From Telmatospirillum sp. (lineage in GTDB: Bacteria; Pseudomonadota; Alphaproteobacteria; Rhodospirillales; Magnetospirillaceae): 64,000 nt of DNA. The translations under genes and the position numbers were made by a program. Positions 10,097 through 30,140 of the stretch are shown here, piece by piece. Where the stretch lies: positions 1 through 64,000 of the forward strand of contig WASQ01000143.1 in the NCBI GenBank assembly GCA_009712185.1. The letters are read 5' to 3'. Position 1 is the stretch's first letter. The number at the start of each line of letters is the position of its first letter. The notes beneath the pieces are model-generated. The model ran no database searches. It saw only the letters and a program-made list of their open reading frames with translations, and was not told the DNA's origin.

Positions 10097-10585
10097 ATGC
10101 AAGGGAAACAACCGGTCATTCAGGAGCTGAACAAGCTTCTTACCGGCGAACTGACCGCCGCCGATCAATATTTCCTGCATTCCCGCGTCTATGAGAACTG
10201 GGGGCTTTCCCGGCTTTATGAACGTGCAGAACATGAACGCGTGGAGGAGCTGGAACATGCCAGCCGGCTCATTCACCGGATCCTGTTCCTGGAAGGGGTC
10301 CCGGATGTCGCGTCCCGCGCTCCGATCAAGACCGGCCCCCCGGTCCCCGACATGCTGCGCGCTGATCTCGACTATGAATTGCTGGGCGTCCAGAATCTCA
10401 AGGCGGCGATTGCCGTGACCGAACGGGAGCAGGATTACGACACCCGCGAGATCCTGGTCGATCTGTTGAAGGACACGGAGGAGGATCACACCTACTGGCT
10501 GGAGCAGCAACTGGGCCTGATCGCCAAGATCGGACTGGCCAACTATTTGCAATCGGCCATCGGTTCCTCGCTCGGATCCCCATGA
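10097..10585 (+). CDS. bfr: Bacterioferritin, ferroxidase-competent subunit
   Basis: 162 aa, four-helix ferritin-like. Aligning by eye with E. coli Bfr, all six dinuclear ferroxidase ligands are present (Glu18, Glu51, His54, Glu94, Glu128, His131; the last two shifted by a one-residue insertion). The axial haem ligand Met52 is Leu. It therefore should oxidise iron but not bind bridging haem by itself. The ATG at 10097 follows AAAGGA by six bases; an upstream in-frame start has no ribosome site. It is followed 13 nt later by the complementary haem-type subunit. Confidence 0.93.
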   Translation: MQGKQPVIQELNKLLTGELTAADQYFLHSRVYENWGLSRLYERAEHERVEELEHASRLIHRILFLEGVPDVASRAPIKTGPPVPDMLRADLDYELLGVQNLKAAIAVTEREQDYDTREILVDLLKDTEEDHTYWLEQQLGLIAKIGLANYLQSAIGSSLGSP

Positions 10586-10598
10586 AGGAGAGGCCGGC

Positions 10599-11084
10599 AT
10601 GAAAATCGGCAAAGGCGCCACGGCGCAATTGAATAAAGTTCTGCGGTCCTATCTGACCGGCATCAACCAGTACTTCCTCCATGCCCGGATGTTGAAAAAC
10701 TGGGGTTTTGCCGCGTTGGGTCAGTGGGAATACAAAGCCTCCATCCATCTGATGAAGGATGCCGACGAACTGGTCGAGCGCATCCTGTTTCTGGAAGGTC
10801 TGCCCAACCTCCAGGACCTCGGCAAACTCCTGATCGGTGAGGACGTGCCCGAAATCCTGAAAAACGACCTCGCCTCCGAGACCGGCCTGCGCGCCGAACT
10901 GGTCGCCGCCATTGCGGCCAGCGAGGGAATCGAGGATTTCGTCAGCCGGGACCTGCTGACCGACCTGTTGGAGGACAGCGAGGAGAGGATCGATTTTTAC
11001 GAAACACAGCTCGATCTGTTTCAGAAGCTGGGAAGCGAAAACTATCTTCAAACCGCCGTGGGTTCGCTGGGCGACGGTGCCTAA
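10599..11084 (+). CDS. bfr: Bacterioferritin, haem-binding subunit lacking the ferroxidase centre
   Basis: 161 aa. The haem-ligand Met52 is kept, but ferroxidase ligands are changed relative to E. coli Bfr: position 18 is Tyr, 51 Leu, 54 Asp, 127 Ser and 130 Arg; only Glu94 remains. It probably assembles with the preceding subunit into a mixed 24-mer in which one chain oxidises iron and the other carries haem and electrons. Two-type Bfr pairs are known, for instance in Neisseria and Magnetospirillum. Good ribosome site GGAGAGG before ATG. Confidence 0.93.
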   Translation: MKIGKGATAQLNKVLRSYLTGINQYFLHARMLKNWGFAALGQWEYKASIHLMKDADELVERILFLEGLPNLQDLGKLLIGEDVPEILKNDLASETGLRAELVAAIAASEGIEDFVSRDLLTDLLEDSEERIDFYETQLDLFQKLGSENYLQTAVGSLGDGA

Positions 11085-11384: not shown

Positions 11385-11585
11385 TCAGTATCCGAGCGGG
11401 CCTTTGACGCGCCCGGGCCCGCAGGGATCGCTCACCCCCTGCACGCCGGGCAGAGCGGCGGCAGAGACGAACGCCGGGGACAGAGGATCGCGGGGCGACC
11501 CGGCCGCCTGGGCCGCGGACAGGGAAACGCCGGCCAGAATGGCGGCGGAAACGGCGAGGGCGATGCGGTTGGTCTTGCTGATCAT
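11385..11585 (-). CDS. Small secreted protein with C-terminal GPLGY, copy 1
   Basis: 66 aa, family not recognised. A signal peptide is clear (positive start MISKTNR, hydrophobic core, AQAA cleavage region near residue 28), leaving a mature chain of about 38 residues with a single Cys and the ending RVKGPLGY. The next minus-strand gene has the same architecture and ending. AAGGAG lies 8 nt before the ATG. The 49-bp element at 11636-11684 sits 50 nt upstream. Export to the periplasm is inferred; the function is unknown. Lack of a lipobox argues against a lipoprotein. Confidence 0.7.
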   Translation of the reverse strand: MISKTNRIALAVSAAILAGVSLSAAQAAGSPRDPLSPAFVSAAALPGVQGVSDPCGPGRVKGPLGY

Positions 11586-11635
11586 GATAATGAACTCCTT
11601 GGCTTGATCGATGGCTGATGCTATCGCGGCGGTTA

Positions 11636-11684
11636 AATCGAGTAAAACGGATGTTTTTCCTTATAAAAATCGTTTTTCCCGATT
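11636..11684 (-). promoter_or_regulatory. 49-bp upstream element, copy 1
   Basis: Identical without gaps at 39 of 49 positions to 12062-12110. It contains ATCG-N7-CGAT and an imperfect dyad of AAAACG and CGTTTT, and ends with the exactly shared TTTTACTCGATT. It lies 50 nt before the start codon of the small gene; copy 2 lies 49 nt before its gene. It may be an operator or a 5'-leader element. Confidence 0.55.
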
Positions 11685-11730
11685 AATCGATTCATTCGTC
11701 ATATGGCTCCCATTTCCTTCCCATGGACCA

Positions 11731-11764
11731 AAGAGAAACGGCTTCGGCCGATGAGGCCGAAGCC
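11731..11764 (-). terminator. Rho-independent terminator for the second GPLGY gene
   Basis: GGCTTCGGCC and GGCCGAAGCC form a perfect 10-bp stem with a five-base loop (11740-11764). On the minus strand it is followed by GTTTCTCTTT. It lies 41 nt after the gene, so the two small genes are separate transcription units. Confidence 0.75.
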
Positions 11765-11805
11765 GGTCACTCTCCCGGGGAGGGAGATCGTCAGGGGCGA
11801 CCGGC

Positions 11806-12012
11806 TCAGTAACCGAGCGGCCCGACCTGCCGTTCCTGGGCGCAAGGCGCGGACTGAACGGTACCCGGCAGCGACACCCCCGTCAGGATACGATCAGTCT
11901 GCAGGCCGGTTGACGGCGTCCCGGCAACGGCGGCCGTGATCGAGCCGACGACAACCAAGGTGGCGGCACAGAGGGTGGCGAGACGGCTGGAAGCTTTGGT
12001 GTTCGTCATCAT
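11806..12012 (-). CDS. Small secreted protein with C-terminal GPLGY, copy 2
   Basis: 68 aa, paralogue of the neighbouring small gene and otherwise unrecognised. A signal peptide spans about residues 1-30 (AAVAG cleavage region). The mature chain of about 38 residues has LPG, one Cys in SAPC, and the end RQVGPLGY; copy 1 has LPG, DPC and RVKGPLGY at matching places. Two ATGs occur (12012 and 12009); CCGGAG lies 5 or 8 nt before them. It has its own terminator and its own copy of the 49-bp upstream element. Confidence 0.7.
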   Translation of the reverse strand: MMTNTKASSRLATLCAATLVVVGSITAAVAGTPSTGLQTDRILTGVSLPGTVQSAPCAQERQVGPLGY

Positions 12013-12061
12013 TTCTACTCCGGTTAAGCGATCCGATGACCAACCATAGCGCGCAGAAACT

Positions 12062-12110
12062 AATCGAGTAAAACCGATATTTTACGGATTAAAGATCGTT
12101 TTTTTCGATT
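12062..12110 (-). promoter_or_regulatory. 49-bp upstream element, copy 2
   Basis: Second copy of the element at 11636-11684 (39/49 identical). Just upstream on the minus strand is a perfect TATAAT (complement of 12112-12117). If that is the -10 box, transcription would start inside the element, so it could act as an operator over the start site or as part of the 5' leader. Confidence 0.55.
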
Positions 12111-12112
12111 TA

Positions 12113-12637
12113 TTATACCCCCCTGCCCGCCGGATCGGCGATCTCGGGTCAACGGAATGAACCCATTCTGAAAAAGGATATTTTGATTGACATTATTAGG
12201 TGATTGTTTCACCGTTATCTCAATTGGACCACGCCGTTTCGTGAAGAGCGCAAAGAGAAAGCACGAGCGGGTGACTGAGTGCCGATAAAAGGATAACGTC
12301 CCGGTAGCAAAGGTTTCCGGGGTGTGAATCTGATGGATCTCAGCTTTCGCCCTGCCATGCGCTTTGGCTTCCCACCATCATCATCCAGGCAGGGCGGAGG
12401 GTTGGACCGGCTCCGATTCGCCCCCCTTAAGTCATTGTATGGAAGCGGACCACCCGGCAGCGGAGTTCCGGATCGTCCGGGCAAAGCCCGTTTCCACCGG
12501 TTAGATCCGGCCCCGATGTGATCCCTCATCGGCATCTCCTCCAATTCGCGAAGACCTTAAAGGCCGGCCGCCCCTTTTCCGCCCCCTTCAAACGGGCGGA
12601 CGGACGGGCGCCCGCCCCAAGCGAATGAAGGAAAGTC
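12113..12637. other. Upstream region of glpABC
   Basis: 525 nt with no convincing gene. It contains TTGACA (12187-12192) with no good -10 at standard spacing, an overlapping TTGAT half-site reminiscent of FNR boxes, an inverted repeat GCCCTGCC (12349-12356) / GGCAGGGC (12388-12395) with a 31-nt loop, and a small hairpin CGGGC-AAA-GCCCG near 12480. None is followed by a T-run, so no clear GlpP-type attenuator is seen here. Confidence 0.4.
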
Positions 12638-14260
12638 ATGGAGTCGACACAGGTCGTCATCATCGGCGGAGGAGCCACCGGAGCCGGCATTCTATGGGAT
12701 CTGTCCCTGCGCGGCATCAAGGCTGTTCTGCTGGAACAAAAGGATCTCGCCAACGGCGCCACCGGGCGCTGTCACGGTCTTCTTCACTCTGGCGGACGCT
12801 ATGTGGTGAAGGATATCGAGGCGGCACGCGAATGCCTTGTCGAGAACCAGATCATCAAACGGATCGCCCCGCATTGCGTTCATGACGTGGGCGGTATTTT
12901 TGTCAAATATCCCCAGGACGACCCCGCGTTCTTCCGTCAGTGGGAACAGGCAGCGGCCACCGTCGGGCTGCCCAGCCAGCAACTTTCGACCGAAGAGGCT
13001 CTCGCGCTCGAGCCCCATCTCCCGAAGTCCATTCTTGGCGCCTACACCTGTCCGGACGCCCATGTCGACGTCTTCCAGTTGGCGCAATCCAACATCGAAT
13101 CAGCCGTCGCGCGCGGCGGCGCGGTCAAGACCTATTGCGAAGCCGCCGGGATCACCATCGTCGACGGGCGGGTCCGTTCCGTCCGCTATCGCGACATCCG
13201 CACCGGCGAAGAGGCCGATATCGCCTGCGAGATGGCGATCAATGCCTCCGGGGGCTGGGCGCAGTCGGTTGCCGCCATGGCAGGCGTGGACGTCCCGGTC
13301 CGCTGCGACAAGGGATCTCTGCTGATCTTCAATCACAATCTTGTCACCCGGGTCGTCAACCGCTGCCGCAAGCCGGGCGATGCCGATATTCTGGTTCCGG
13401 CCGGCCCGGTCTGCGTGCTCGGCACCAGTTCCATCACCGTACCGTCGCCGGACGGGCTGACCGCGCTGCCCGATGAGGTCGGACATCTCCTTGACCTTGG
13501 TGCCGAACTGATCCCGGTTCTGGCGGAAGCCCGCATCCTACGCATCTTCTCCGGGGCACGGCCGCTTTACGTGCCCAAGACCGCCGGGGCCGCCGGAGGC
13601 CGCGAAATCAGCCGCGGCTTTGCTCTTCTCGATCACGATACGCTGGACGGTGTGCGCGGATTTGTCTCCATCGTCGGCGGCAAGCTGACAACCTACCGGA
13701 TGATGGCGGAGGTGACCGCCAACCTCGTGGCCGCCAAGCTCGGGGTGGATGCGCCCTGCCGGACGGCGGACGTCCCCTTGCGTCCGCTGCCCGATGCCGC
13801 GGTGCTGGAACGGGCGCGCCGGCTGCTGCCGGCACAGGCGGCCGCGATTGCGGAACGCCGGCTTGGCCCCAACCTGGGCCATATCGTGAAAGCGATCGAA
13901 GCCCGGCCCGAACTGGCGGAAATCATCTGCGAGTGCGAACAGGTCACGCGCGCCGAACTGGAATTCGTCCTGGGTGACGACAATCTGGTGCCGGTCCGTG
14001 CGCTGACCGACGTCGGACGCCGGACGCGCCTGGGCTTCGGCCCCTGTCAGGGAACGTTCTGCGGGTACAAGGCGATGCTCGCCGGCTATCGTGCCGGACG
14101 GTGGACATCGGCGGAAGCGGCCAGCGAGTTCGAGCGCTACCTGGATGCCCGGTGGAAGGGACAAAGTTTCGTCACCCACGGTAAACAGGTCGAGCAGCTT
14201 TATCTCAGTCACGATCTGTTCGGCGTGACTTACAACTTTCACGATCAGAACGGGCGGTGA
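12638..14260 (+). CDS. glpA: Anaerobic-type glycerol-3-phosphate dehydrogenase subunit A
   Basis: 540 aa, same length class as E. coli GlpA. An N-terminal FAD-binding motif (VVIIGGGATGAGI), the DAO fold with GGKLTTYRMMAE, and a C-terminal BFD-like [2Fe-2S] domain with Cys431, Cys433, Cys470 and Cys475 are present. GlpAB oxidises sn-glycerol 3-phosphate to DHAP and passes electrons to GlpC at the membrane. First gene of glpABC; GAAGGAAA precedes the ATG. The Fe-S C-terminus separates it from GlpD, encoded separately at 28527. Confidence 0.95.
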   Translation: MESTQVVIIGGGATGAGILWDLSLRGIKAVLLEQKDLANGATGRCHGLLHSGGRYVVKDIEAARECLVENQIIKRIAPHCVHDVGGIFVKYPQDDPAFFRQWEQAAATVGLPSQQLSTEEALALEPHLPKSILGAYTCPDAHVDVFQLAQSNIESAVARGGAVKTYCEAAGITIVDGRVRSVRYRDIRTGEEADIACEMAINASGGWAQSVAAMAGVDVPVRCDKGSLLIFNHNLVTRVVNRCRKPGDADILVPAGPVCVLGTSSITVPSPDGLTALPDEVGHLLDLGAELIPVLAEARILRIFSGARPLYVPKTAGAAGGREISRGFALLDHDTLDGVRGFVSIVGGKLTTYRMMAEVTANLVAAKLGVDAPCRTADVPLRPLPDAAVLERARRLLPAQAAAIAERRLGPNLGHIVKAIEARPELAEIICECEQVTRAELEFVLGDDNLVPVRALTDVGRRTRLGFGPCQGTFCGYKAMLAGYRAGRWTSAEAASEFERYLDARWKGQSFVTHGKQVEQLYLSHDLFGVTYNFHDQNGR

Positions 14261-15369
14261 CGACCATGGACAGCAATCGATTCGATCTGATCGTCGTCGG
14301 CGCGGGCCTGTCCGGAATGACGGCCGCCGCGACCGGTGCCGCCCGCGGGCTGCGGGTCGCGCAGGTCTTCTCAGGGTTCGGCATGTTCGTGTTCGGTGCG
14401 GGGTCTATCGGCCGCCAACCGTTGTCGGCGATCGAAACGCCCGACCTTCGCGACGAGGCCCTCACCTTTTTCCGTGAGTTCACCCGCCAGGCCGGTTGCC
14501 CCTTCGAGGGCGATATCGACGGCGAGGCGCGTCTGCCAACCGTGCTGGGCAGTTTTCAGTCCGTCAGCATGGCCCCGTCCTATGTCTGGAGCGGCATTGC
14601 CGGAACACCGGGACTGGCCGCAGTCGTGGGGATCGAGGGTCTCTCGAGCTTCGACGCCGATTTTGTCGCCGAACGGCTGAATGCCGAGGCCGGCCGCCTG
14701 GGTCTTGCCACCGCCTACACAGCGCGCCGGATCTCATTGCCGCACGAGGCGGGAGTGACCCCCGGCACGCTTCATTTCGCCAACAGCTTCGATCGCGATC
14801 CGGCATTCAGGGCGGCGCTTCTGGCCGCACTGAAACCGATCGCCATGACGGCCGACCTGATCATCATCCCGGGTCTTCTGGGACAGAGGACCGGGACCGA
14901 CGAGATCGAGCAGTTCCGGCAGGAGCTGGGAACGCCGATCTGCGAACTGCCGACATTACCTCCATCGGTGCCCGGACTTCGGCTGTTCCACGCCCTTGAG
15001 CGCCGCCTGCGCCGCGACGGCGTCGAGTTCTTCTCCGGCTTCCCGGTGACATCGCTTCTTCTCGCCGACGGACATTGCGACGGCGTCGAAATCGCGACGC
15101 CAGCCCGGCCCCGCCGGCTGTCGGCCTCGTCGGTGATCCTCGCCTCCGGCCAGTTCTCCGGACGGCTGTTGGGACGGCAGGGGAGTGGGTTCGATGACCG
15201 GCTCCGCCCGCTGGACGAGACCGGCGGGGCGATCGGCGACAATCTCTATGCCGCCGGCGCCTTTTTGTCCGCCCCGGGCGAACACGGGGGCAATCAACGT
15301 GCAATTCTGACCGGCTATCGCGCCGGTATGCTGGCCGTGGGCCAGGAGGGTCGCCATGCGACACGATGA
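14257..15369 (+). CDS. glpB: Anaerobic-type glycerol-3-phosphate dehydrogenase subunit B
   Basis: 370 aa. N-terminal flavin-type nucleotide-binding motif (FDLIVVGAGLSGMTAAATG), and near the C-terminus a conserved NLYAAGAFL with AGxMLAVGQEG-type ending. It pairs with GlpA in the catalytic dimer. A GTG at 14257 overlaps the glpA stop by four bases (GTGA); the ATG at 14266 gives a start nearer to E. coli GlpB, so the start is uncertain by three codons. It overlaps glpC by 14 nt. Confidence 0.92.
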   Translation: MTTMDSNRFDLIVVGAGLSGMTAAATGAARGLRVAQVFSGFGMFVFGAGSIGRQPLSAIETPDLRDEALTFFREFTRQAGCPFEGDIDGEARLPTVLGSFQSVSMAPSYVWSGIAGTPGLAAVVGIEGLSSFDADFVAERLNAEAGRLGLATAYTARRISLPHEAGVTPGTLHFANSFDRDPAFRAALLAALKPIAMTADLIIIPGLLGQRTGTDEIEQFRQELGTPICELPTLPPSVPGLRLFHALERRLRRDGVEFFSGFPVTSLLLADGHCDGVEIATPARPRRLSASSVILASGQFSGRLLGRQGSGFDDRLRPLDETGGAIGDNLYAAGAFLSAPGEHGGNQRAILTGYRAGMLAVGQEGRHATR

Positions 15370-16582
15370 CGTCAGTCTCGACAACTGTCTTAAATGTTCC
15401 GACTGCAATACCGTCTGCCCGATGCTGGCGGCCAATCCGGCCTATCCGGGCCCGAAGCATCTGGGGCCGGAGCTGGAACGCCTGCGTCGCGAGGGCCTGC
15501 CCTGCGACAGCGACTGGCTGGAATACTGCCTGGGATGCCACCGCTGCGACCTTGCCTGCCCCAACCAGGTCAATGTGTCGGAATTGATCGCGGCCGCCAA
15601 GGCGCGCCATAGCAAGACGGGTATCCGCAAGTTCCGCGATTTCTGGTTTGCCCGTCCGGCGCTGCTGGGGCGGATGTTGAGCATTGTTCCGGCCCTGACC
15701 AATGTCCTCCTGGGTGCGAAGGTGGCCCGTTTCGGCATGGGCAAGGTCATGAAGATCACCGACAAGCGCCGGTTCCCGCCTTATGCGCGCCCCAACCTTG
15801 ATCTTCCCAAAACCACCGGTGGCAAGGCGGGAAAACTCGTCTTCTTCCCGGGATGCGCGATCCGCTACAACCAGCCGGATCTGGCCGCCAAGGTCGCCCA
15901 GGTGTTGAACCGTAACGGCTTCGACACCGAAGTTCGCGATGCCGGTTGCTGCGGCGTCCCCGCCCTGGCCAATGGCGACGGTGTTGAGGCACGGCAGCGG
16001 GCCGCGGCCAATGTCGAGGAGTTGAGCCGTGCAGTCCGGGAGGGAGCGCGGATCGTCACCGCCTGCCCCAGTTGCGGACATATGCTGAAGGCCGGAATGG
16101 CCGATCTGCTGTCCGATGATCCGGCACTGGAAGGCAAGGCCCGGGATGTCGCCCGGAACACCTACGATCTGGCGGAGCTTCTGATGTCTCGGTCGGACGA
16201 TGGCGCGCTCGATACCGCCTTCGCACGGCGGGACATGAAGCTTGCCTATCACTCTCCCTGCCATCAGCTGTCGCAAGGAATCGGGCGGCCCTGGTTCCAC
16301 CTTCTGCGTCAGGTTCCCGGGATCGCCATCGAGGATCTCGATGCCGGCTGTTGCGGCATGTCCGGCACCTTCGGGTTCAAGGAGGAGAAATATCCCGCCT
16401 CCATGGCGGTCGGCCAGCGGCTATTCGACCGGGTCGCGGAGACCAGGCCGGAAATGGTGGTGACGGAATGCGCCACCTGCCGGATGCAGATCGAACATGG
16501 CACGGGGGTTCGGGCCATCCATCCGGTGGAAATTCTGCTGGAGGCCTATGGCCAGCGGGGGAATGGCGATCGGCACGGCTGA
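15356..16582 (+). CDS. glpC: Anaerobic-type glycerol-3-phosphate dehydrogenase subunit C (Fe-S, membrane anchor)
   Basis: 408 aa. Two [4Fe-4S] ferredoxin motifs are visible: Cys11, 14, 17, 21 and Cys58, 61, 64, 68. Two cysteine-rich CCG domains follow (AGCCGVPALANG with TACPSCGHML; AGCCGMSGTFGFKEEKY with CATCRMQIEHG). The subunit transfers electrons from GlpAB to quinone. Translation is coupled to glpB by overlap. Heterodisulfide-reductase-like subunits share these domains, but the glpAB context fixes the assignment. Confidence 0.94.
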   Translation: MRHDDVSLDNCLKCSDCNTVCPMLAANPAYPGPKHLGPELERLRREGLPCDSDWLEYCLGCHRCDLACPNQVNVSELIAAAKARHSKTGIRKFRDFWFARPALLGRMLSIVPALTNVLLGAKVARFGMGKVMKITDKRRFPPYARPNLDLPKTTGGKAGKLVFFPGCAIRYNQPDLAAKVAQVLNRNGFDTEVRDAGCCGVPALANGDGVEARQRAAANVEELSRAVREGARIVTACPSCGHMLKAGMADLLSDDPALEGKARDVARNTYDLAELLMSRSDDGALDTAFARRDMKLAYHSPCHQLSQGIGRPWFHLLRQVPGIAIEDLDAGCCGMSGTFGFKEEKYPASMAVGQRLFDRVAETRPEMVVTECATCRMQIEHGTGVRAIHPVEILLEAYGQRGNGDRHG

Positions 16583-16643
16583 CAAACGGACATCAAACGA
16601 TGACGGCCGGCGAAAGGCCGGTTAATGTTTGTCCTCCCAACGC

Positions 16644-16684
16644 GATCAGGGGCATGATGCGGTGCGCCGCCTCCGCCCCTGATC
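16644..16684 (+). promoter_or_regulatory. Inverted-repeat hairpin in the glpP leader
   Basis: GATCAGGGGC (16644-16653) and GCCCCTGATC (16675-16684) form a perfect 10-bp stem around a 21-nt loop that contains GCGG-TGCG-CCGC. It lies between glpC and glpP, about 110 nt before the glpP start. No T-run follows, so it is not a standard terminator; a weaker CCGGC/GCCGG hairpin at about 16606-16621 with TTAATGTTTGT after it may be the glpC terminator. Confidence 0.45.
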
Positions 16685-16794
16685 GGTGCGGGAGCCGTTT
16701 GAGCCGTGGCACACCCCGGCTTTCTCTGCCAGAAACCACGTCGGGGCGGAATCTGTTGAAAGACGCCCCGGTGCGCACAGGAGAGGTCCGATCC

Positions 16795-17430
16795 ATGTCC
16801 CCCCCGCGATCCGCGATGAACGCCCCGGAAAGGGGCCATGGCGCAGCGCCGGCGCGGCCCAGGCTGCCGTCCATCCGGCCCCTGTTCCAGGAAACCGGAT
16901 TGATCCCGGCGGTCCGCAAGCCCGAACAGCTTGACAAGGCGCTCGCCGCCCACGGCAAAATTGTCTATCTGCTGTGTGGAGAGCCGGAAAACATCGGCGA
17001 TCTGATGCAGCGAACCGTCGCCGCCGGCAAACTGGTGATCGTCAATATCGATCTTCTGGGTGGACTGTCACGGGATAATTACGCGCTGCATTACCTGGAA
17101 CGGCGCGGTGTCAGCGGGATCATTTCGACGCATGGCGAGACATTGCGCCAGGCGCAGGCGCTGGGACTTTATGTGATCCAGCGGACCTTCCTGCTCGACA
17201 GCGGGGCGATGGACAATATCTGTCACCAGATCAAGAACAGCTCGGTCGACGCGCTGGAAGTGCTGCCGGCGATCGCAGCCCCCAAACTGGTGGCCCGCGC
17301 CAAGGCCCTGTCCCTGGAAACGGTCCTTGTCGGTGGCGGCCTGATTTCGTCACTGCGCGAGGTCCAGGATCTTTTGTCTCAAGGATTGCTGGCGGTATCG
17401 GTCAGCGATCCCCAGCTTTGGATCCCCTGA
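16795..17430 (+). CDS. glpP: Glycerol-3-phosphate-responsive antiterminator GlpP
   Basis: 211 aa. It matches the Firmicutes GlpP family by eye: the Ile-Pro-Ala-Val-Arg opening (IPAVRKPEQLDKAL), IVNIDLLGGLSRDNYAL, GIISTHGETLRQAQ, VIQRTFLLDSGA, LEVLPAIA and the C-terminal VSVSDPQLW. In Bacillus, GlpP with glycerol 3-phosphate permits read-through of leader terminators before glpD and glpFK. The ATG at 16795 has GGAGAGG 8 nt upstream. About 25 extra N-terminal residues precede the conserved core. It lies between glpC and tpiA; a matching leader terminator occurs at 18475-18525. Confidence 0.9.
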   Translation: MSPPRSAMNAPERGHGAAPARPRLPSIRPLFQETGLIPAVRKPEQLDKALAAHGKIVYLLCGEPENIGDLMQRTVAAGKLVIVNIDLLGGLSRDNYALHYLERRGVSGIISTHGETLRQAQALGLYVIQRTFLLDSGAMDNICHQIKNSSVDALEVLPAIAAPKLVARAKALSLETVLVGGGLISSLREVQDLLSQGLLAVSVSDPQLWIP

Positions 17431-20238: not shown

Positions 20239-21738
<1,500 letters not shown>

Positions 21739-21777: not shown

Positions 21778-22509
21778 ATGCATGGACCGATTTTTGGGGA
21801 ATTCCTTGGCACGTTGGTGCTGATTCTCCTTGGTGATGGCGTTTGCGCCAACGTTACTCTGATGAAGTCGAAAGGCCAGGGCGCCGGCTACCTGACGGTG
21901 GCGGTGGCCTGGGGTCTTGCCGTCCTGTGCGGCATCTGCACCAGCGTCGCCGTTGGCGGCGTCGCCCACCTCAACAGCGCCGTCACTTTCGCCCTTGCCG
22001 TTGCCGGCAGCTTCCCTTGGGCCGATGTTCCGGCGTTCGTTGTTGCCCAGTTCGCGGGCGCCTTCGTCGGTGCAACCCTCGTGTGGCTGGTCTATCTGCC
22101 GCACTGGGCGGAAACCCCGGATCAGGCCGCCAAGCTTGGCATCTTCTGCACGGCTCCGGCCATCCGCAACATCCCGGCGAACTTCCTGACTGAGGTTATC
22201 GCCACCTGCTTCCTGGTCATCATCGGCTTTGCTTTCGGCTCGAAGGGCCTGTCCCCGACCGGACTGCCGGCCGGCTTCGGACCCTACCTCTGGGGCATGC
22301 TGATCTGGGCGTTGGGCATGGGTGTTGGTGGTCCCACGGGTTGGGCGATGAGCCCGCCGCGTGACCTGGGTCCGCGTATCGCTCACGCGGTCCTGCCAAT
22401 CGCCGGCAAGGGCGGTTCGGACTGGGGTTATGCCGCAGTTCCGGTCGTCGGGCCGCTGGTTGGTGCGGGCATCGGTGCTCTCATCTGCCTCGCGACTGGC
22501 ATTCTCTAA
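21778..22509 (+). CDS. glpF: Glycerol facilitator (MIP family) with altered NPA motifs
   Basis: 243 aa with six membrane helices and two half-helices, like other GlpF channels. Both pore signatures are changed: the first reads HLNSAVTF (Asn66-Ser67-Ala68) instead of NPA, the second AMSPPRDLGPR (Ser192-Pro193-Pro194) instead of NPA. The selectivity-filter Arg195 is kept. The frame is intact and the gene has a good ribosome site (GAAAGGGG). It should still facilitate glycerol entry given the glpK context, but pore chemistry may differ. Two tandem terminators follow. Confidence 0.92.
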   Translation: MHGPIFGEFLGTLVLILLGDGVCANVTLMKSKGQGAGYLTVAVAWGLAVLCGICTSVAVGGVAHLNSAVTFALAVAGSFPWADVPAFVVAQFAGAFVGATLVWLVYLPHWAETPDQAAKLGIFCTAPAIRNIPANFLTEVIATCFLVIIGFAFGSKGLSPTGLPAGFGPYLWGMLIWALGMGVGGPTGWAMSPPRDLGPRIAHAVLPIAGKGGSDWGYAAVPVVGPLVGAGIGALICLATGIL

Positions 22510-28526: not shown

Positions 28527-30140
28527 ATGCGACATCACCGTCTTGACGCGCTGCGAACCAACGAACTCTTCGACATCCTGGTCATCGGGGGCGGGGCCAC
28601 CGGTTGCGGGATCGCGGTGGATGCCGCAACCCGCGGCCTCAAGGTCGCGCTGGTGGAACGCAACGACTTCGCCGAGGGAACCAGCAGCCGCAGCACCAAG
28701 ATGGTGCATGGCGGCGTCCGCTACCTGGAAGCCGCCATCAAGCGACTGGACAAGGCTCAGTACACGCTGGTGCGGGAGGGATTGCACGAACGCGGCGCTT
28801 TCCTGCGTAACGCGCCCCACCTGTCCAACCGCGTCCCGCTGGTCACGCCGCTTTACTCCTGGATGGAGGTCCCCTATGTCTTCGCGGGCCTCAAGCTTTA
28901 CGACCTTCTGGCCGGATCACAGAACATCGGCCACAGCAGCCTGATCAGCCGCGCCGAAGCCTTGCGCCGTTTCCCCTTCCTGAAGGCGGATGGCCTGAAG
29001 GCGGGCGTCGTCTACTACGACGGCCAGTTCGTCGATGCGCGCATGGCGATCGCGCTCGCCAAAACCGCGGAGGATGCCGGTGCCGCGGTCGCCAACCATG
29101 TCGCGGTGACGGCCCTGATCCACGACACCGACCGCCGGGTTGCCGGCGCCGAGGTGGAGGACCGCCTGACGGGCGATCGCTGGACGATCCGGGCCCGCGC
29201 CGTGATCAACGCCACCGGTCCTTATGCCGACGCGATCTGTCGCATGGACGATCCGGCGGCGCAGCCGATCCTCAAAGTCAGCTCCGGCATTCATATCGTT
29301 CTCGACAAACGGTTCGTGCCCCCGGACACGGGCATGCTGATCCCCAAGACCGACGACGGTCGCGTCCTGTTCATCCTGCCCTGGCAGGGTCACGCGCTGA
29401 TCGGCACCACCGACGAACCCGCCACGGTCTCGGAACATCCGAAGCCGGAGGCTGCGGATATTGCCTATCTGCTGAACCATATCCGGCGATATTTCAATGT
29501 CGCGGTCAGCGAAAGCGATATCAAGTCGGTCTGGTCGGGTATCCGCCCGCTGGTCTTCGACCCCAAGGCCAAGGATACGTCGCAACTGGCCCGCGACCAT
29601 GTGATCATCGAGTCGATGTCCGGGCTGGTCACGATTTCAGGCGGGAAATGGACGACCTACCGCCTGATGAGCGAACAGGCCGTCGATCGCGCCATTTCGG
29701 TCGCCCATCTGTCACCGGTCCGGCCCTGTTGCACCCACCATCTGAAACTTTGGGGCGGTGCCGGATACCGTGAGGACGGCGACCGCGTCCTCGTTCGGGA
29801 TTACGGCCTGGAGGCCGATGTCGCGCGCCACCTCAACCGCATCTATGGCGACCGCGCGTCCGACGTCGCCGCCCTGGCGGCCAGCGGTGCCGGGGCCCGC
29901 CTGCATCCCGCGCACCCTTATATCGAGGCGGAAGTTCTCTATGCGGTGAGGGAGGAGGCCGCCGTCCATGCCGCCGATGTCCTGGTCCGGCGCATGACGC
30001 TGGCCCATGTGGACCGCCCCGCCGCGCTTGCCGCCCTGCCGCGCGTCGTCGCCATCATGACCGACGCCCTCGGCTGGTCGGATCACGATCGCGAGGTCGA
30101 GGAATCGCGTGCGAGGGAACGACTGGAAGAGGCCATCTGA
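28527..30140 (+). CDS. glpD: Aerobic FAD-dependent glycerol-3-phosphate dehydrogenase
   Basis: 537 aa from ATG 28527. N-terminal FAD motif LFDILVIGGGATGCGIAVDAATRG, TSSRSTKMVHGGVRYLE, and the VTISGGKWTTYRLMSEQAVD C-terminal FAD contact; a DAO-C helical domain closes the protein. It oxidises glycerol 3-phosphate to DHAP and reduces ubiquinone. GAGG stands 6 nt before this ATG but only 2 nt before an ATG at 28515, so 28527 is preferred. Unlike GlpA it has no Fe-S tail. Divergent from glpR. Confidence 0.97.
   Translation: MRHHRLDALRTNELFDILVIGGGATGCGIAVDAATRGLKVALVERNDFAEGTSSRSTKMVHGGVRYLEAAIKRLDKAQYTLVREGLHERGAFLRNAPHLSNRVPLVTPLYSWMEVPYVFAGLKLYDLLAGSQNIGHSSLISRAEALRRFPFLKADGLKAGVVYYDGQFVDARMAIALAKTAEDAGAAVANHVAVTALIHDTDRRVAGAEVEDRLTGDRWTIRARAVINATGPYADAICRMDDPAAQPILKVSSGIHIVLDKRFVPPDTGMLIPKTDDGRVLFILPWQGHALIGTTDEPATVSEHPKPEAADIAYLLNHIRRYFNVAVSESDIKSVWSGIRPLVFDPKAKDTSQLARDHVIIESMSGLVTISGGKWTTYRLMSEQAVDRAISVAHLSPVRPCCTHHLKLWGGAGYREDGDRVLVRDYGLEADVARHLNRIYGDRASDVAALAASGAGARLHPAHPYIEAEVLYAVREEAAVHAADVLVRRMTLAHVDRPAALAALPRVVAIMTDALGWSDHDREVEESRARERLEEAI

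Follow-up and report, generated by a model that had tools for sequence, protein, structure and literature searches.

Peroxide responses have been described mostly in terms of cytoplasmic enzymes. In Escherichia coli, the IR1 site of OxyR is centred at -66 and consists of the 15-bp dyad ATAG-n7-CTAT; in the layout of OxyR promoters, this T-N11-A dyad is accompanied by a second contact ahead of the -35 (PMC5002191). Standard targets of OxyR include katG and dps, and for Magnetospirillum its control of bacterioferritins has also been reported (PMC12912731). The only footprinted box of an OxyR-Like protein that our literature search yielded for this group is the OxyR-Like box of Magnetospirillum gryphiswaldense MSR-1, GATA-N9-TATC, whose reported target is the pdh operon and not peroxide genes (PMC5308003). 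The second known system of relevance is the Bacillus-type glp operon, in which glpP occurs with glpD/glpA, glpK, and glpF (PMC9604022).

The locus described here has an ordinary switch and a new product: undescribed, apparently exported cysteine microproteins with peroxide-type promoters at a rare GlpP glycerol locus. We give a probability of roughly 0.6 to the reading that OxyR-type peroxide promoters drive exported one-cysteine peptides at a GlpP-type glycerol locus, with the two genes concerned best explained, as part of that same reading, as old tandem paralogues.

The window, by which we mean the whole 64,000-nucleotide stretch of Telmatospirillum DNA that was analysed, carries two consecutive small genes on the minus strand, supported by ORFs, family alignments, and dN/dS. 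They encode proteins of 66 residues (11385..11585, ending LPGVQGVSDPCGPGRVKGPLGY before the stop codon) and 68 residues (11806..12012, ending LPGTVQSAPCAQERQVGPLGY), and both the ORFs and the C-termini RVKGPLGY and RQVGPLGY are as the original prediction had read them. Its description of the products as single-cysteine proteins holds for the predicted mature peptides but not for the 68-residue precursor, which has a second cysteine (C15) inside the signal peptide. Likewise, the proposal that each gene has its own terminator stands for gene 2, where a clear hairpin with a T-tract is found (11739..11765, minus strand), but not for gene 1, where the hairpin is followed by a weak T-tract and was not accepted by the terminator scan. 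The two proteins are about 36% identical. Among relatives, dN/dS over whole genes is 0.23–0.59; the ORFs are therefore coding, and a non-coding explanation is rejected.

Export is predicted by eye, as the N-terminus is hydrophobic and AxA-like sites are present; it would leave mature peptides of about 27–40 residues across the family. AlphaFold2, run on protein 1 as a single sequence without an alignment, returned a helix at residues 4–29, corresponding to the signal peptide, and a remainder with pLDDT of about 50 or less; no fold was thus predicted for the mature part. The alternative that these are lipoproteins was rejected because the conserved cysteine lies 10–12 residues from the C-terminus in the alignment, well behind the hydrophobic segment and outside any lipobox.

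The predicted family with a conserved terminus is real, and homologues exist: 13 members were found in 11 genomes. These include two in the genome of the window, one in Telmatospirillum siberiense 26-4b1, two in Telmatospirillum MAG_CA127, two in genus g10 (G018 and G019), one in genus g15 (G024), four in genus g83 (G194, G195, G199, and G200), and a single one in an Azospirillaceae MAG; the G200 gene, located next to glpD, was identified by manual inspection. The range of the family is therefore Telmatospirillum, three other genera in two families of the order, and the Azospirillaceae MAG. Members were sought in the genus, GTDB family, and order, and 84,980 species genomes were scanned with a DNA pattern; as the scan is blind to members with other codons or spacing, the count outside the order is a lower bound, and weak HMM matches without a GPLGY-type terminus were kept out of the 13. 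Alignment of the members defines a core of [LR]PG-x5-8-C-x5-6-G[PIV]LGY-COOH. The PG, the cysteine, and an LGY directly before the stop codon are invariant in 13/13 members, and G[PIV]LGY is complete in all but G200, which has T for the first G. Nothing relevant emerged when the small proteins were searched by profile against Pfam, NCBIfam, PHROGs, and PDB sequences or by tblastn against plasmids, or when the literature was searched for GPLGY, in agreement with the original view that the protein family is unrecognised. Based on these sequence features, we regard it as an undescribed family of apparently secreted small cysteine proteins.

Upstream of each gene is a 49-bp element (11636..11684 for gene 1 and 12062..12110 for gene 2, both minus strand). 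As originally claimed, the two copies are identical at 39 of 49 ungapped positions (80%), with 50 and 49 nt separating them from the start codons, and the spacer is not conserved, with 6/49 ungapped matches. The 100 nt above the element match at 23/100 positions. In 300 trials in which the two 200-nt upstream regions were dinucleotide-shuffled, the best 49-mer match had a mean of 24.8 and a maximum of 32. The similarity is thus focal, confined to the element while spacer, upstream sequence, and proteins are unlike, so the element is maintained by selection. A pattern derived from the two copies occurs only twice in the 6.1-Mb genome; the elements of the small genes in g10, g15, and g83 show at least four differences at the pattern's specified bases.

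In gene 1, the element consists of a 15-bp dyad, ATCGGGAAAAACGAT, of the T-N11-A form, followed by 16 bp, ATCC, and then the -35; in gene 2, the dyad ATCGAAAAAAACGAT is in the same register. Predicted promoter cores, derived from alignment of 12 family promoters with 17 element-bearing peroxide-defence promoters, comprise the putative hexamers TTTTAC and TAGCAT separated by 18 nt for gene 1 (11618..11647, minus strand) and TTTTAC and TATGGT separated by 19 nt for gene 2 (12043..12073, minus strand), with the dyad centre of the latter at about -66. Across the four genera, the 12 family promoters align without gaps over 47 bp, reading ATCG-N7-CGAT, then 16 bp, an ATCC-like half-site, TTTYAC, and NCGAT; the spacing between dyad and -35 is constant, and a TATGNT-like -10 follows at 18–19 nt from the -35. 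The dyad keeps T-N11-A in 10/12 of these promoters and pairs at 2–7 of 7 positions (mean about 4.6, versus 1.8 in shuffles); its centre lies at -65/-66 relative to the start expected from the promoter.

The one claim about the element that we have to reverse is that it is unrecognised: its anatomy is that of LysR/OxyR-type promoters, and copies of it also precede rubrerythrin, catalase, and Dps genes. Within the genus, ATCG-N7-CGAT-N20-22-TTTYAC matches five small-gene promoters, a catalase promoter (G002), a rubrerythrin-rubredoxin-reductase operon (in MAG_CA127), and two others. We then searched 314 genomes of the order with the full 47-bp pattern at up to three mismatches, for which the reversed control gave three matches in all. 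Further elements do exist in related genomes: with the small genes excluded, the 20 matches in the window's family comprise 15 rubrerythrin promoters in 15 genomes, one KatG promoter (in T. siberiense), one catalase promoter (G002), and three chance-like matches, with gene identities checked on representatives. Because the pattern was drawn from small-gene promoters alone, this link to peroxide-defence genes was not built in. T-N11-A is present in all 17 peroxide-gene promoters, which the pattern itself had selected, and the rubrerythrin promoters are alike even in the start-site region (..CCATCGGATCA..AAGGAG). Outside the window's family, the search found one Dps promoter and other matches that appear chance-like, of which only some were read. 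The Dps gene, in another family of the order (G185, locus L147), carries the element with three mismatches, which suggests that this operator type may be older than the window's family.

These promoters resemble those of E. coli oxyS, katG, and dps in having a 15-bp T-N11-A dyad near -66 and a site reaching the -35, and the genes that share the element (KatG, another catalase, Dps, and rubrerythrin) resemble an OxyR regulon. The half-sites differ, being ATCG/CGAT here and ATAG/CTAT in E. coli, and roughly where E. coli has its second inverted repeat, 22 bp downstream, the element shows only a partial ATCC/ATCG half-site. The M. gryphiswaldense OxyR-Like box is also a LysR-type dyad from related Rhodospirillales, but its sequence and spacing are unlike those of the element. 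Given the OxyR-like layout and the catalase, KatG, and Dps targets, we take the element to be most likely an OxyR-type peroxide operator on a weak -35, with OxyR as the most likely regulator. It would also give this branch of Rhodospirillales a candidate peroxide-operator sequence. A further difference from the known regulon is the target: we know of no described OxyR regulon in which it is an exported peptide.

Each small gene would accordingly be under its own peroxide-stress-type promoter. A LysR-type activator, most likely OxyR, would bind the ATCG-N7-CGAT dyad at about -65 and contact the weak -35 (TTTYAC); once oxidised by H2O2, it would turn on the small genes together with those for rubrerythrin, KatG/catalase, and Dps. 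The exported peptide would then probably act via its thiol, which could be oxidised, pair in a disulfide, or bind metal, and its conserved GPLGY tail would be a putative docking end. Thiol chemistry outside the cytoplasm is a tentative proposal, made because the spacing between a single conserved cysteine and the free GPLGY end is fixed in an apparently exported peptide with a peroxide-type promoter.

The alternative that survives best is that the proteins are signalling or docking peptides whose exact C-terminus is recognised by a receptor, transporter, or protease, with the peroxide promoter only setting the timing. We consider this unlikely, even though GPLGY and its distance from the cysteine are the most conserved features, the other residues of the mature part vary, and that part has no predicted fold in the single-sequence model. 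Recognition of the terminus by such a partner had been suggested at the outset, and the conservation of the terminus fits, but no transporter, protease, or receptor gene constantly linked to the small genes was found in their neighbourhoods. The cysteine, moreover, is as invariant as the tail and would be needless for a pure tail signal. Whatever the partner, C-x6-GPLGY-stop offers a clear signature with which to search for it.

The constant neighbours are glpA or glpD, glpP, glpK, and glpF. In the window, gene 2 is divergent from glpA, encoding a glycerol-3-phosphate dehydrogenase subunit (12638..14260), which heads an operon on the plus strand that continues with glpB (14257..15369), glpC (15356..16582), glpP, encoding a glycerol-3-phosphate responsive antiterminator (16351..17430, with the PF04309 domain at 16903–17421 and the true start downstream of 16351), glpK for glycerol kinase (20239..21735, 91.6% identical to the T. 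siberiense homologue), and glpF for the glycerol facilitator (21778..22506). A small gene is divergent from the first glycerol-3-phosphate operon gene, glpA or glpD, in 10/10 gene-bearing genomes of the order. The operon is glpA(BC)-glpP-...-glpK-glpF in Telmatospirillum and g15, and glpD-glpP-glpK-glpF in g83; in g10 it begins with glpD, and glpA lies further on. Three members are placed otherwise: in the window, gene 1 follows gene 2 in tandem; in MAG_CA127, the second copy lies away from glp, beside an extensin-like gene; and the Azospirillaceae member is next to glpF/glpK and convergent with glpF.

Of 317 genomes of the order, 10 encode GlpP, and each of these also has the small gene; no confirmed family member was found in the other 307. 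The probability of such an overlap of two sets of ten by chance is 4e-19, but the ten genomes represent no more than four genera and the genes share a single locus, so the overlap amounts to one co-inherited locus rather than ten independent events. A member of the same GTDB genus with an AT-rich, apparently reduced genome of 0.9 Mb (G003) has kept glpABC and has neither GlpP nor the small gene, indicating that the small gene goes with the GlpP locus type and not with glpA.

These observations raise a second alternative, that the peptide has its role in the utilisation of glycerol or glycerol-3-phosphate, for instance by acting on GlpF or on a membrane dehydrogenase, and that the promoter is secondary. 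In its favour are the divergent arrangement throughout the order's ten GlpP genomes, the G003 pattern, and the Azospirillaceae member, which lies at a glp locus and has no recognisable peroxide element. However, the paralogue away from glp in MAG_CA127 keeps a peroxide-type element, and the co-occurrence is partly plain adjacency within the co-inherited locus, so we regard an accessory role of this kind as rather improbable. A sequence about 150 nt upstream of the Azospirillaceae member (TTTAGAATTATTCTTATT, upstream of 1891 in L049) resembles an iron-control (Irr/ICE) box.

If the small genes instead form part of a peroxide response, as we favour, glycerol could still enter the picture, as flavin-dependent glycerol-3-phosphate oxidation could raise peroxide once oxygen enters. 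An exported peptide is not obviously an answer to a cytoplasmic source, and the glycerol link may be functional or may merely reflect shared locus ancestry. It is conceivable, albeit doubtful at present, that these proteins constitute a new class of exported microproteins with a single cysteine that are induced by peroxide, provide redox information or protection outside the cytoplasm, are tied to glycerol-3-phosphate oxidation, and carry GPLGY as a docking end. If this is correct, an exported cysteine peptide sharing the rubrerythrin/KatG switch would add a novel type of effector to the peroxide response.

DegS recognises the C-terminus of outer-membrane proteins as a ligand and thereby induces the envelope stress response. 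The small proteins, apparently exported and having a free, conserved C-terminus with an aromatic last residue, could by analogy mimic an outer-membrane-protein end and raise this response through a periplasmic PDZ protease of the DegS/DegQ type, but GPLGY lacks the alternating hydrophobic pattern of outer-membrane-protein C-termini and no protease is linked, making this very unlikely. A recent whole-locus duplication, to which the tandem position of the paralogues might point and which the original prediction had raised against its own element, is refuted by the divergence of spacer, upstream region, and proteins around an element that is kept across four genera and before unrelated genes.

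Other features of the window concern the surroundings of the small genes. Two ferritin-like genes (10097–10585 and 10599–11084, plus strand) form a tandem pair convergent with them, and such a pair is beside the small genes in MAG_CA127 too; ferritins are reported OxyR targets in Magnetospirillum. Between the divergent genes lies a conserved hairpin block (12234..12270, plus strand), a candidate glp leader element, that is found at the equivalent place in T. siberiense, MAG_CA127, G018, G019, G024, G194, G195, G199, and G200. Its stem, TTCGTG..CACGAR, shows changes on both sides, and AGAGC and GAGA are invariant. Rfam searches of the intergenic regions gave only chance-level matches, and the block has no Rfam family. 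The block falls outside the intervals that separate the promoters of the small genes from the gene starts, and no T-tract was seen; it is possible that it is the target of GlpP in the glp leader. In gene content and in having a conserved hairpin block upstream, the operon thus resembles the Bacillus-type system, from which it differs in being alphaproteobacterial, in the added divergent gene for an exported peptide, and in showing no T-tract at the hairpin.

Additional glycerol genes occur in two of the genomes. MAG_CA127 contains a second glpA-glpF cluster with glpK (L105; G004:C39:11000-30900), which lacks a small gene and includes two further, diverged GlpP copies that are about 35% identical. 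The window's genome holds both dehydrogenase types, as a second, GlpD-type glycerol-3-phosphate dehydrogenase gene, whose product is 61% identical to the g10 GlpD, is located at 28527–30137, 16 kb from glpABC.
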